From positions 62,001 through 126,000 of the forward strand of contig JAAUOM010000001.1 of NCBI GenBank assembly GCA_012034865.1: a stretch of DNA of 64,000 nucleotides. Direction: 5' to 3'. The stretch is from Acaryochloris sp. CRU_2_0 (GTDB taxonomy: Bacteria; Cyanobacteriota; Cyanobacteriia; Thermosynechococcales; Thermosynechococcaceae). The position numbers and the translations under genes were made by a program. Under the pieces are notes generated by a model. It did not search any database. It saw only the letters and a program-made list of their open reading frames with translations, and had not been told where the DNA came from. Positions 49,520-54,226 of this stretch are shown here, piece after piece; position 1 is the first letter of the stretch, and each line of letters begins with the position of its first letter.

Positions 49520-50875
49520 ATGATCGCGGTAGCAATTTTGGCGGCAGGTAAAGGCACACGCATGAAGTCGAATTTGCCTAAGGTTTTGCATCAACTGGGG
49601 GGCAAGAGTATGGTTGAACGGGTGTTGAATAGCACCATTGACTTATCCCCGTCTCGCCAAATTGTGATCGTTGGCTATTGTGCAGATCAGGTACAAACGG
49701 CATTGCAAGCTTGGTCAGGGTTAGAGTTTGTCGAACAAACCGAGCAACTGGGGACAGGTCACGCCATTCAGCAAATTCTGCCAGTTCTCAAGGAATTTGA
49801 GGGCGATCTATTGGTTCTCAATGGTGATTTGCCCTTGCTAAGACCCCAAACTTTAAAAAAAATGCTGGTCACTCACCAAACCCATGAGAATGCTGCCACC
49901 ATTTTGACGGCTCACATCCCCAATCCCAAGGGCTACGGGCGAGTCTTTTGTGATGCGCGAATGCATCTGCAGGAAATTATTGAAGATCGAGATTGCAGCC
50001 CTGCCCAAAGCCAAAATCAACGGATTAATGCGGGTGTCTATTGTTTTCGCTGGTCAGCCCTAGAGCAAGTCTTGCCTCACCTTAAGGCTGACAATGATCA
50101 GCAAGAATATTACTTAACCGATGCAGTCAACTATCTAGAACCCGTCATGGTTTTGGATGTGGAGGATTACCAAGAAATTTTAGGCATTAACGATCGCAAA
50201 CAGCTTGCTACTGCTTACAACATTTTGCAAAACCGGATCAAAGATGACTGGTTAACTGCAGGGGTAACCTTAATCGATCCTGACAGTATTACGATTGATG
50301 AAACCGTAGAACTAGCATCTGATATCGTCATCGAACCCCAAACCCACCTCAGAGGAAACACCAAAATTGATACGGGCAGTCATATCGGTCCTGGAACCTT
50401 AATTGAGAACAGCCACATCGGTGCCAATGTCCGCGTCCTCTATTCCGTGATTAAGGATAGTCAAATCGGTGATAACGGTCAGATTGGTCCTTATACCCAT
50501 CTGCGCGGTGAGGTACAAATTGGCAGCCAATGCCGAGTGGGGAATTTTGTAGAAATCAAGAAAACAACCCTTGGCGATCGCACCAAGGTTGCCCACCTTT
50601 CTTATCTAGGTAATGCCACCCTGGGGGCTCAGGTCAATATTGGCGCGGGGACCATTACCGCTAATTATGATGGGTTCAATAAGCATCCTACTTACATTGG
50701 CGATCGCACCAAAACAGGAGCCAATAGCGTCCTAGTGGCCCCCATTACATTAGGAACCGATGTCACTGTTGCGGCTGGATCAACCCTCACCCAAGATGTC
50801 GGGGACGATGCGCTGGTTATCGCGCGTCAACACCAAAGTGTCCTTCCCGGTTGGCGTCCATCTACTTCCAAATAA
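49520..50875 (+). CDS. glmU: Bifunctional GlmU: GlcN-1-P acetyltransferase / UDP-GlcNAc pyrophosphorylase
   Basis: A 451-residue enzyme making UDP-GlcNAc for peptidoglycan and lipopolysaccharide. The N-terminal uridyltransferase has [18 protein letters not shown] and [10 protein letters not shown], plus the conserved NAGVY. The C-terminal left-handed β-helix shows hexapeptide repeats ([21 protein letters not shown]) and the acetyl-transfer site region ([13 protein letters not shown]...[13 protein letters not shown]). It has a good ribosome site (AAGGAC) before ATG 49520. The tnpB element lies right behind its stop. Confidence 0.96.
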
Positions 50876-52137
50876 CAAGTTTGAGCCGCTTCATTTCGGG
50901 AGACAACCCATTAGGGATCGAGTAACGTCTTCCGGGCGCTGTACCGCTTAGGCGGTACAGCGCGGGCGCATCCATTAGCCCAGGAAGTTTCAGCAGCCCG
51001 CCAGCTATCTCGCAAGACAACCAGGAGCCTCCAGGCCATATTACCGATGACCCGATTGTTTTAATATTTTTTGCCCCGTTCAAATCCGCATCCCCATGCC
51101 AACCGCAATGACCACAAACAAACCGCTTACCTTTTCTGTACGACTTCCCTGTAACGGGGTGAATGTGCAGGCATTGGTGGCAAGTTTGACTGGTGTATCT
51201 GGGGTTAACCATGACAACCTTCACACCTGCACCCAAAGCTTTGTAGTCAATAAACAGTCGCAGTTGATGAAATGCCCAACTATTCGAGCGTCTGCGCTCG
51301 GTTTTGGTGCGGGCTTGTTGATTGGTGCGTTCGCGGATGCCCGTCAGATCCTCAATTGCAATGCTGGCTTGTTTGGACTTGGCAGTTTGAACGAGACTTT
51401 TGGAGATGTTGTGATTCAACCAGCTCTGAAATCGACGCTCACGACCAGACAACCATTGCAGCAATCCACGCACTCGACGGCGTGTACTGCGTGTGCCCTT
51501 ACTGGCTTTGTGTTGGAGTTTCGCTCTCAAGTTGGCATAGTGGTCACGCACTTTGTTGATGCTTTTGCCTTCCCAGGTTTGTCCCTCGGAAGTATGAGCG
51601 ATGTCAGTGCGTCCCAAATCCACGCCCAAGACATTCTCGCTTTCTTGCGGGCTTGGCGGTTCCGACTCCAGACAAATCTGGAGGTAATAGGAACCATCTT
51701 GCCGCTTAACCAGAGTGGCGGACTTTGGGTTAGAGCCTTTAAGCGCCCCGATCTGGTAGTTGCCAATGGCCAATTCAAACCGCTCACGACCATCAACGGT
51801 AGTCAGCGATACCGTCCAGTCCTTCTCCCGAAACGAGAAGATTCGAGCGTCGTAGGTGACAAAGCCAACTTTGAACGCTTTCACTAGACGATTCTTTTGT
51901 TTGGCAACTTTGCGAGAGCCTGCAACCCTGTTGAGCCAAATTACTCGACAGACCAAATCGGGCGCGAACTTCGTAGTAGCAAAGCGATTGCAGCTTTACC
52001 GTATTGGCTATCTTCTCTGGCGTGTTCTGGTTGACCCAGTTCAACGCCTTCCCAAAAGCGTCAAGCGTCGCATCCAATTTCTGGGCTTGCAACTTATTGA
52101 CCTTGAGCTTGCAGGAGATACTCAAGACTTGATTCAT
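50862..52137 (-). pseudogene. tnpB: IS605-type TnpB (OrfB) transposase-associated nuclease, frameshifted
   Basis: Two frames make one TnpB: residues from ATG 52137 (MNQVLSISCKLKVNKLQAQ...ARFGLSSNLAQQ) and then, shifted, NRVAGSRKVAKQKNRLVKAF onward to 50862. The RuvC residues are intact: Asp in VLGVDLG, Glu in IAIEDLTG and Asp in GDADLNGAKNI. The zinc-finger cysteines are also present (TCHQC and CGHC). The break is best explained by an 11-bp deletion between AACAG repeats near 51926-51931. No tnpA (Y1 transposase) is present. The last 30 codons run through the right end into flanking DNA and overlap glmU by 14 bp. TnpB proteins are RNA-guided nucleases; the loss of frame in the N-terminal part probably inactivates this copy. 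Confidence 0.85.
50925..50975 (-). ncRNA. TnpB omegaRNA 3' hairpin at the element's right end
   Basis: Perfect 12-bp stem GCGCTGTACCGC (50936-50947) with its complement (50952-50963), loop TTAG. On the minus strand it follows the tnpB catalytic part and is followed by CGGAAGACGTTAC, then flanking DNA. In IS605-type elements this hairpin marks the scaffold end, and the guide is the adjacent flank, here the sequence running toward the glmU stop. Confidence 0.6.
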
Positions 52138-52512: not shown

Positions 52513-52848
52513 ATGAAACTTATCCGCATTCTGGCACAATCCACCTTGGTTGGCGCTTCCCTACTTGGTTTGGGCATCCTCTCAACTCAGGCACAATCCA
52601 ACCTGCCCCCAGGTGCAGAAGATATGCCAACGGGGTATGTCCTTAGCAAAACACCCATTGCCGGAAAGCACTGCTACCATCACGGCGGGGGGCACGTCTA
52701 TTTCTACTGTTACTCTCGCAAAATCAATGGATCTGAAATTAAGCAGCATGGTGCCATGATGAAAGACGGCATGATGAAAAAAGATGATGGCATGATGAAG
52801 CATGATTCCATGATGAAAAAAGATGATGGCATGATGAAAAACAAATAG
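52513..52848 (+). CDS. Secreted methionine-rich protein
   Basis: A 111-residue protein with a Sec signal peptide (core about residues 8-22, cleavage near TQAQ at 25-28). The mature part has HCYHHGGGH (53-61) with two cysteines (C54, C66), then a C-terminal tail in which 10 of the last 32 residues are Met, arranged as MMK/MMKKDDG units; a 30-bp DNA repeat at 52770-52799 recurs exactly at 52809-52838. It leads an operon with a cytochrome b and a Tat-exported molybdoenzyme. In proteobacteria, methionine-rich periplasmic peptides serve as sacrificial scavengers of hypochlorite beside YedY/MsrP-type enzymes, so this may be an oxidant sink. A copper-binding role is the alternative. Confidence 0.72.
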   Translation: MKLIRILAQSTLVGASLLGLGILSTQAQSNLPPGAEDMPTGYVLSKTPIAGKHCYHHGGGHVYFYCYSRKINGSEIKQHGAMMKDGMMKKDDGMMKHDSMMKKDDGMMKNK

Positions 52849-52894
52849 GAATTGGGTTGCTTTTGAAAGAAGCACTCAATATCCAGAGGACGCC

Positions 52895-53500
52895 ATGACT
52901 TCACCCCTATCCTCTCATCGTCAAGTTCGACGGGTTCCTACTCAGACTTTTTGGGTCAAAATCTTTCATTGGATTAATATCATCAGTTTAATCTTGATGA
53001 TCACCAGTGGGCTGCAAATCTATAATGCCAATCCGGTATTGGGTGGGCGCGAAGGATGGCAGTTCCCGGATTTATTCCTGCTGGGGGGATGGCTGGCAGG
53101 CGGACGGCACTGGCATTTTGCTGCGATGTGGCTGTATTCTTTGAATTTACTTGGGTATGGACTCTACGTTTTTGCCACTCGTCGCTGGCAGCGTCGGTTT
53201 GCCAGTAGCGCTGACCTGCAAGCATTGCAGAAGAGTCCAAACCTAAAGCGGAAGAACCTTGCATGGCATCGGTTAGTTTATACCGCGATCATTCCTATTT
53301 TGCTGCTGGCAATTCTAAGTGGTCTCGCCATGTTCAAGCCTGCTCAATTACACTGGCTAGCTGCGCTATTTGGGAATTGGCAAACGCTTCGCACAATTCA
53401 CTTCCTGAGCGTTCCTCTAGTCCTTCTGTTTACAGTCGCTCACTCCTTGCTTGCCCTTAAGGTGGGGAGCATCCGTCTCATCCAGTCCATGTTTCTCTAG
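52895..53500 (+). CDS. Cytochrome b561-like membrane protein, heme partner of the molybdoenzyme
   Basis: A 201-residue integral membrane protein with four segments. Candidate heme ligands are histidines in KIFHWINIISLIL, HWHFAAMWLYSLN, WHRLVYTAII and TIHFLSVPLVLLFTVAHSLL. This fits the cytochrome b/b6-type family that includes the thiosulfate reductase and Ni-Fe hydrogenase b subunits. It starts 46 bp after the Met-rich gene and ends 9 bp before the molybdoenzyme, so it should pass electrons from the quinone pool to it. The usual MsrP partner, MsrQ (YedZ, six segments), is replaced by this shorter protein. ATG 52895 has AGAGGACG before it. Confidence 0.8.
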   Translation: MTSPLSSHRQVRRVPTQTFWVKIFHWINIISLILMITSGLQIYNANPVLGGREGWQFPDLFLLGGWLAGGRHWHFAAMWLYSLNLLGYGLYVFATRRWQRRFASSADLQALQKSPNLKRKNLAWHRLVYTAIIPILLLAILSGLAMFKPAQLHWLAALFGNWQTLRTIHFLSVPLVLLFTVAHSLLALKVGSIRLIQSMFL

Positions 53501-53509
53501 AGGTGAGCA

Positions 53510-54226
53510 ATGGGTCTCATTCTTCCCAAACATTTCCTATCCCGCCGCCAATTACTGCAACTCTCTGGATTCTCTGGGGCAAATCTGTTCCTGGGCGGCT
53601 GTGGGTCAAGTTTGTTCTCAGACACCGTGGGGCAATTGGTTGAACCTCTCAACCAAAGGATTGAAGAACTGCTGCTTACGCAAAAGCCTGTCCCTGAATA
53701 TCCAGTCAGTGCGATTGAGCCAGACAAGTTACTGATCAATACGTTTGACTTTGCGCCTGAAATTGACCCGACAACCTTTCGTCTGACGATTGATGGCGAA
53801 GTCAGTCGGCCTTTGCAATTGAGCATGACCGATATCCAGAAATTGCCCTTGACTTCAATGGTAATTCGCCATGTCTGTGTGGAAGGCTGGGCTGCGATCG
53901 TTCAATGGGGTGGGGTCAGATTACGAGATTTAGTGGCTCTGGTTCAACCCAAGTCCAATGTCCGTTACGCCTACTTTAAATCAGCTGATGGCTATTATGA
54001 AAGTTGGGACATTGCCTCTGCACTCCATCCTCAAACCCTGATGGCTTACAAGAAGAATGGACAACCGTTATCCGTGGATTATGGTGCCCCCTTGCGCTTG
54101 GCATCGCCAGTCAAACTGGGCTACAAGCAAAGCAAATGGGTAACCCAGATCAAGCTGGTCAGTACCTTGCTACCTGCTAAAGGTTACTGGGAAGATCAAG
54201 GCTATGAGTGGTTCGCAGGACTATAG
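53510..54226 (+). CDS. Tat-exported molybdopterin-dependent oxidoreductase (sulfite oxidase/MsrP fold)
   Basis: A 238-residue protein. It begins with a Tat-like signal (SRRQLLQLSG, residues 11-20) and then GGC at 29-31, which may be a lipobox. The body has the SUOX-fold pattern: RLTIDGEVSRPLQLSMTDIQKLP and the molybdopterin-ligand Cys123 in IRHVCVEGWAAIVQWGGV, then GAPLRLASPVKLGYKQSKWV. MsrP, a relative, repairs methionine sulfoxide in exported proteins. The natural substrate here may therefore be the Met-rich protein encoded two genes upstream. Other members reduce other S- or N-oxides. The position of the Cys and the size suit the family. Confidence 0.82.
   Translation: MGLILPKHFLSRRQLLQLSGFSGANLFLGGCGSSLFSDTVGQLVEPLNQRIEELLLTQKPVPEYPVSAIEPDKLLINTFDFAPEIDPTTFRLTIDGEVSRPLQLSMTDIQKLPLTSMVIRHVCVEGWAAIVQWGGVRLRDLVALVQPKSNVRYAYFKSADGYYESWDIASALHPQTLMAYKKNGQPLSVDYGAPLRLASPVKLGYKQSKWVTQIKLVSTLLPAKGYWEDQGYEWFAGL

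Follow-up and report, generated by a model that had tools for sequence, protein, structure and literature searches.

What would a cyanobacterium gain from placing the gene for a methionine-rich secreted protein directly ahead of those for a membrane cytochrome and an exported molybdoenzyme? We addressed this question for an operon in the window, the whole 64,000-nucleotide stretch of Acaryochloris sp. CRU_2_0 DNA that was analysed. The evidence leads us to regard the operon, with good though not full confidence, as the quinol-fed half of a cell-envelope methionine-cycling system. Its features are as follows.

52513..52848, + strand: Met-rich secreted protein P0001, 111 aa, with a signal peptide at about residues 1-28, a small Cys/His domain and a Met-rich tail
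52750..52845, + strand: tail of P0001, 10 Met in 32 residues, with MMKKDDG/MMKHDS units; proposed sacrificial oxidant sink
52895..53500, + strand: b561-type cytochrome b (PF01292), 201 aa, with His25, His74, His169 and His183 invariant; proposed quinol-to-enzyme donor
53510..54226, + strand: MsrP-like molybdoenzyme (PF00174), 238 aa, with an SRRQLL Tat motif, lipobox Cys31 and RHVCVEGW
53600..53602, + strand: Cys31 codon of the enzyme, in a lipobox-like LGGC downstream of the twin-arginine motif
53876..53878, + strand: Cys123 codon of the enzyme, the expected Mo ligand, in a CVEGW motif in common with MsrP

A sequence-only reading of this DNA had described the three-gene layout, and it was borne out: the three ORFs lie on the + strand at the positions above, with gaps of 46 bp between P0001 and the cytochrome and 9 bp between the cytochrome and the enzyme. 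A promoter and terminator scan of the operon gave no signal above chance. Directly upstream, on the - strand (window 50862-52137), lies a TnpB/OrfB-type transposase gene (PF07282, PF01385), whose N-terminal end is overlapped in another frame by a second ORF, possibly a frameshifted part of the transposase.

P0001 consists of a signal-peptide-like N-terminus followed by GAMMKDGMMKKDDGMMKHDSMMKKDDGMMKNK, and the count of 10 Met among its final 32 residues given by the sequence-only reading is correct. Met makes up 1.94% of residues in the long ORFs of the window; at this frequency, a run like the P0001 tail has a chance probability of ~3e-10. Across the whole 64 kb, P0001 is the sole stop-to-stop frame of at least 50 residues with at least 8 Met in 32. 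Profile searches gave no family match for P0001, and the pentapeptide MXKDX repeat model TIGR02953 (cut-off 41 bits) was not matched; other proteins of the conserved operon described below reach 72.6 and 47.7 bits with it. A homologous domain was found in three other loci (L083, L138 and L139), with Cys54, His57 and Cys66 invariant, followed in the same place by tails with different repeat units (MMKPGDS in L083, MMKKDGS in L138). This family, a domain and then variable Met repeats, is rare: only G000, G017 and G019 carry it among the 291 genomes of a class-wide sample, and all three also possess the enzyme.

We then examined the molybdoenzyme. It belongs to PF00174 (E 1.6e-34), and E. coli MsrP (1xdy, 1xdq) was the top Foldseek match of its structural model, which has a moderate pLDDT of 64.7. 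The enzyme shares the SUOX fold, the CVE-x-W active-site motif and the Tat signal with MsrPQ (E. coli YedYZ). However, true MsrP is longer (318-334 residues), forms a separate clade and has MsrQ (PF01794) as its partner. The best NCBIfam match of the window enzyme was indeed MsrP, at 91.9 bits, far below the 207-bit cut-off, whereas a true cyanobacterial MsrP (L026) scores 442 bits. In a 36-sequence alignment, HxCVEGWxA, LGYKxxK and G(Y/F)WxDxGYxW are invariant, with Arg preceding the His in nearly all sequences; Cys123 is invariant in all relatives and aligns with the CVEAW/CVEGW of MsrP. The twin arginines and Cys31 are present in at least 90% of the alignment, Cys31 being kept in 35 of 36 sequences. 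Because SRRQLL is followed by this conserved Cys31 in LGGC, the enzyme is probably exported by Tat as a lipoprotein and not left free in the periplasm.

Phylogenetic analysis placed the cyanobacterial enzymes, those of proteobacterial replicons and C3567 of uropathogenic E. coli together on one side of a branch (100/100), with the true MsrP of E. coli, Azospirillum and one cyanobacterium lying apart from them. SoxC falls elsewhere, as do two other families, a cyanobacterial one of ~350 residues and a short one of ~200; the long branches of these groups leave the deep order unsure. Assignment of the enzyme to MsrPQ was thus rejected on score, tree and partner. One cyanobacterium, G049, possesses a true MsrPQ pair (L026 694-2244; MsrP 442 bits, MsrQ 157.6 bits) and holds no enzyme of the b561-linked clade; both systems therefore occur in the phylum, separately.

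The partner itself is a PF01292 protein (E 1.4e-15), not a PF01794/MsrQ protein, in line with the earlier proposal that a b561-type donor stands in place of MsrQ; PF01292 and PF01794 are distinct families, and on the partner that defines MsrPQ (PF01794 / NF003831) the pair falls outside that system. The four His residues are invariant across the aligned cyanobacterial and proteobacterial cytochromes, as expected of a putative di-heme b561 protein. A sequence search of the PDB with the cytochrome returned no match. The MsrQ cut-off was exceeded in none of the 386 sampled cyanobacterial genomes, and MsrQ was reported as not readily found in Limnospira (PMC8400943).

To which genes is the pair linked elsewhere? 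Among 386 evenly drawn cyanobacterial genomes, 57 carry the enzyme, and we examined 40 of their loci. The cytochrome adjoins the enzyme in 38 of the 40, which makes the two a conserved cyanobacterial pair. A larger collection of 96 loci is Nostoc-rich and counts a few loci twice; in it, the recurrent upstream neighbours are a CcdA-like protein (44), a TlpA-like thioredoxin (41), a Met-rich lipoprotein (23, linked by similarity) and a secreted MsrA (8). They form a longer conserved operon in the order Met-rich lipoprotein, TlpA-like thioredoxin, CcdA, (MsrA), cytochrome, enzyme, and L066 shows the full order with MsrA. In the Brasilonema locus L083, a P0001 homologue takes the place of the lipoprotein beside the thioredoxin-CcdA-cytochrome-enzyme operon. 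The genome of the window encodes thioredoxin, CcdA and MsrA together on another contig (C157:5589-7637), not contiguous with the window operon. The relay is thus complete in this genome and joined to the enzyme in one operon in relatives, so that the window carries half of the system. Many cyanobacterial loci hold the cytochrome-enzyme pair only: at 30 of the 40 evenly drawn loci, both a Met-rich gene and thioredoxin-CcdA are missing from the neighbourhood.

Two further observations concern these loci. Genes resembling sensor kinases (~16 loci) and response regulators (~8 loci) lie near the enzyme in several Nostocales loci; in L063 (795-3335, relative to the enzyme start) and L064 they are downstream, and they recall the control of the E. 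coli operon discussed below. The record that contains L109 is titled Tatlockia sp. MAG, yet the locus looks cyanobacterial; the contig was probably mis-binned or the genome misnamed.

We next quantified the association with Met-rich genes, defined as ORFs of 50-220 residues with a signal-like N-terminus and, in the mature part, at least 6 Met and at least 7% Met. In neighbourhood counts that include related Nostoc genomes and a few duplicated loci, the 294 kb lying 0.6-4 kb upstream of the enzyme contain 32 such sense-strand ORFs, versus none on the same strand in 639 kb of outer flanks, and 31 of the 96 loci have a Met-rich exported protein from one of several unrelated families. The evenly drawn set agrees: a Met-rich ORF occurs at 8 of 40 loci, versus none in 400 kb of control DNA of the same genomes, and 7 of these 8 loci fall among the 9 with thioredoxin-CcdA (Fisher 1.5e-5). 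Genome-wide, a lipoprotein profile, built from proteins adjoining the enzyme in the operon, matched 14 of the 386 genomes; the enzyme is present in 13 of these 14, compared with 57/386 overall (Fisher 5.5e-11). The independent model TIGR02953 matched 6 genomes, 4 with the enzyme (p 0.005). The proposed co-occurrence of short Met-rich ORFs with the enzyme was therefore upheld for Met-rich exported proteins as a class, which are strongly and specifically linked to the locus, but the ORF of the window itself is rarely found beside the enzyme. That unrelated Met-rich proteins occupy one slot is as expected if selection acts on Met content, not on sequence.

Dependence of the enzyme on its cytochrome could be judged from loci that have lost the adjacent copy. 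Of 77 readable GTDB loci, 26 have an intact enzyme but a truncated or missing adjacent cytochrome, and their records are all Nostoc by name or, judging by their titles, other Nostocales; L099 and L109, where cytochromes are present, were left out of this count. An artefact of ORF calling was ruled out, as the DNA holds truncated remnants. Of 22 Nostoc-group loss genomes searched whole, 21 carry one intact cytochrome copy elsewhere, 61-65% identical to the query; the remaining assembly measures 5.0 Mb, which is small for this group. The adjacent cytochrome is likewise lost in G119 and G344, each of which has a single enzyme and an intact cytochrome copy elsewhere. In G119 and G214 the distant cytochrome adjoins a pyrF-like gene, taken as pyrF from its sequence, and the same neighbour follows the enzyme in other loci. 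A cytochrome copy can thus be lost where another is kept, an argument for the enzyme requiring a b561 partner; the distant copy would then serve it. The truncations, 100-700 bp upstream of the intact enzyme (L032, L053 and ~24 other Nostoc-group loci), are repeated and apparently independent.

The origin of the window's own pair was also considered. The enzyme is 84% identical to Nostoc proteins versus 72% to a same-family protein, and a close match to it is absent from six same-genus genomes, some of them incomplete assemblies. Contamination of the contig was ruled out by glmU, which lies on it beside the locus and is 83-84% identical to most same-genus genomes (75% to G006). Judging from these sequences, the cytochrome-enzyme pair probably either arrived by horizontal transfer or disappeared from sister genomes.

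The sequence-only reading had presented the arrangement as cyanobacterial and known of no description of it, and on both counts it has to be revised. E. coli, Burkholderia and Microvirga replicons carry it too. On a Microvirga plasmid, an MXKDX protein, the cytochrome, the enzyme, MsrA and MsrB follow one another between two ECF sigma/anti-sigma pairs, and Burkholderia and E. coli plasmids have the order cytochrome, enzyme, Met-rich protein. Of 5,426 complete E. coli genomes, 352 carry the whole module or parts of it, chromosomally or on plasmids; it is plasmid-borne in ~72, and on the one plasmid read (L144 6316-7974) it lies near streptomycin and sulfonamide resistance genes.

Because c3566-c3568 of uropathogenic E. 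coli CFT073 has been published as the same three-gene set (PMC8550376; L149), the arrangement is not unprecedented. These genes encode a cytochrome B (c3566), a protein with 27.6% identity to MsrP (c3567) and a Met-rich protein (c3568); they are induced by tert-butyl hydroperoxide, and deletion of c3566 or c3567 causes sensitivity to it (PMC8550376). Like the window, this oxidant-induced, protective operon combines a cytochrome b, an enzyme of the same clade (100/100) and a small Met-rich exported protein; the cytochrome of a near relative, carried on an E. coli plasmid, belongs to PF01292. The window accordingly displays the traits of this module: an enzyme in the clade of C3567, an adjacent PF01292 protein with the four His and an adjacent exported Met-rich protein. 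The E. coli operon differs in its order (cytochrome-enzyme-Met-rich) and its two-component regulator, no thioredoxin, CcdA or MsrA is reported in it, and c3568 is MXKDX-like and lacks the Cys/His domain of P0001. RefSeq marks c3566 as frameshifted (L149 96-694), though its deletion has a published phenotype.

Similar systems, in which a Met-rich peptide is the hypochlorite sink as proposed here, are SigF/NrsF - mrpX - yedYZ of Azospira suillum and bcrXQP of Brucella (PMC4623255, PMC5748585, PMC8315932). Both pair a periplasmic MsrP-like reductase with a quinone-linked membrane partner, and the Brucella peptide is MXKDX; HOCl induces bcrXQP, which protects from HOCl (PMC8315932). In contrast to the window, they are under ECF sigma control and their partner is described as YedZ/MsrQ-like. 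The thiol-fed genes resemble the S. pneumoniae Etrx/SpMsrAB2 and S. gordonii pathways, where CcdA and thioredoxin-fold proteins feed an extracytoplasmic Msr; the available parts of these reports (PMC3914529, PMC7034828) mention neither a molybdoenzyme arm nor a Met-rich sink. In Bradyrhizobium, MetSO reductases belong to an ECF regulon together with a putative cytochrome c biogenesis protein (PMC3420878); the latter may represent the thiol arm. What is new here is the cyanobacterial branch, the thiol arm joined in one operon and the reciprocal-loss evidence for b561 dependence.

How would the parts work together? That the Met-rich protein is a sink recycled by the MsrP-like enzyme, the function first proposed for this operon, is well supported in outline by the MsrP-like fold, the b561 partner, the Met-rich linkage and the MsrA, CcdA and thioredoxin in the operon of relatives; we infer the oxidant, the chemistry, the direction of electron flow and the tail as substrate. 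Hypochlorite, peroxide or singlet oxygen would convert Met of the exported Met-rich protein to methionine sulfoxide, and other envelope proteins would thereby be spared. The molybdoenzyme, exported by Tat and probably anchored by lipid, would reduce the sulfoxide with quinol-pool electrons that reach it by way of the di-heme b561 cytochrome. A thiol-fed second arm of the same system, from cytoplasmic thioredoxin through CcdA and the TlpA-like thioredoxin to exported MsrA, would recycle the Met-rich protein too. The stronger proposal, that the two arms form one genetic unit recycling the same interchangeable Met-rich exported sink, is in our judgement evenly balanced.

The most serious competitor, though we consider it doubtful, is general envelope repair, in which the cytochrome and enzyme, like MsrPQ, repair the MetO of ordinary proteins in the periplasm, with the Met-rich proteins as extra clients or bystanders. 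E. coli MsrPQ does mend the ordinary periplasmic proteins SurA and Pal (as cited in PMC8315932 and PMC8550376) and likewise Spy (PMC12503329). At the 30 of 40 loci where the pair has no Met-rich gene close by, the substrates must be envelope proteins in general, or else the enzyme does something else. Yet the Met-rich proteins are specifically linked to the enzyme and co-occur with it genome-wide, and the linkage is repeated in Proteobacteria.

Handling of metals has its own appeal. Cu(I) can be bound by Met pairs and by Cys/His residues; the Met-rich tail and the Cys/His domain could thus hold Cu(I) or another soft metal, at a site that the redox proteins keep reduced or repair. Under copper stress, CusF, a copper chaperone of E. 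coli, is reported to be repaired by MsrPQ (PMC9302797), and the Caulobacter sigma-F that controls a YedY gene responds to chromium and cadmium (PMC3511200). What makes this explanation improbable is that the Met-rich proteins near the enzyme vary in sequence and spacing (MSKDKAGDAM, MKGDAMKGD, MMKPGDS, TMHSGSGTM) with no constant metal-binding motif, that no copper transporter was recognised among the recurrent neighbours of the conserved operon, and that MsrA in the operon points to MetO. MsrA and the Met-rich neighbours likewise speak against a sulfite dehydrogenase or another SUOX activity that would send electrons into the quinone pool via the cytochrome. The SUOX fold and weak SorA/SoxC profile scores would suit such an activity, but the active-site motif is CVEGW as in MsrP versus CSGNG in SoxC, the tree puts the clade on the MsrP side and there is no cytochrome c partner like the neighbour of SoxC, which together make it highly improbable.

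The methionine-cycling reading extends the idea of a Met-rich sink beyond the few Proteobacteria in which it is known to oxygenic phototrophs, which face singlet oxygen and peroxide in their envelopes. It distinguishes the MsrP-like clade that relies on b561 cytochromes from true MsrPQ, with which its members are compared in the literature, and explains how a molybdenum Msr could be supplied with electrons in cyanobacteria that lack MsrQ. If the two-arm cycle is true, the reducing power of the photosynthetic and respiratory membrane would be spent on an expendable antioxidant protein.
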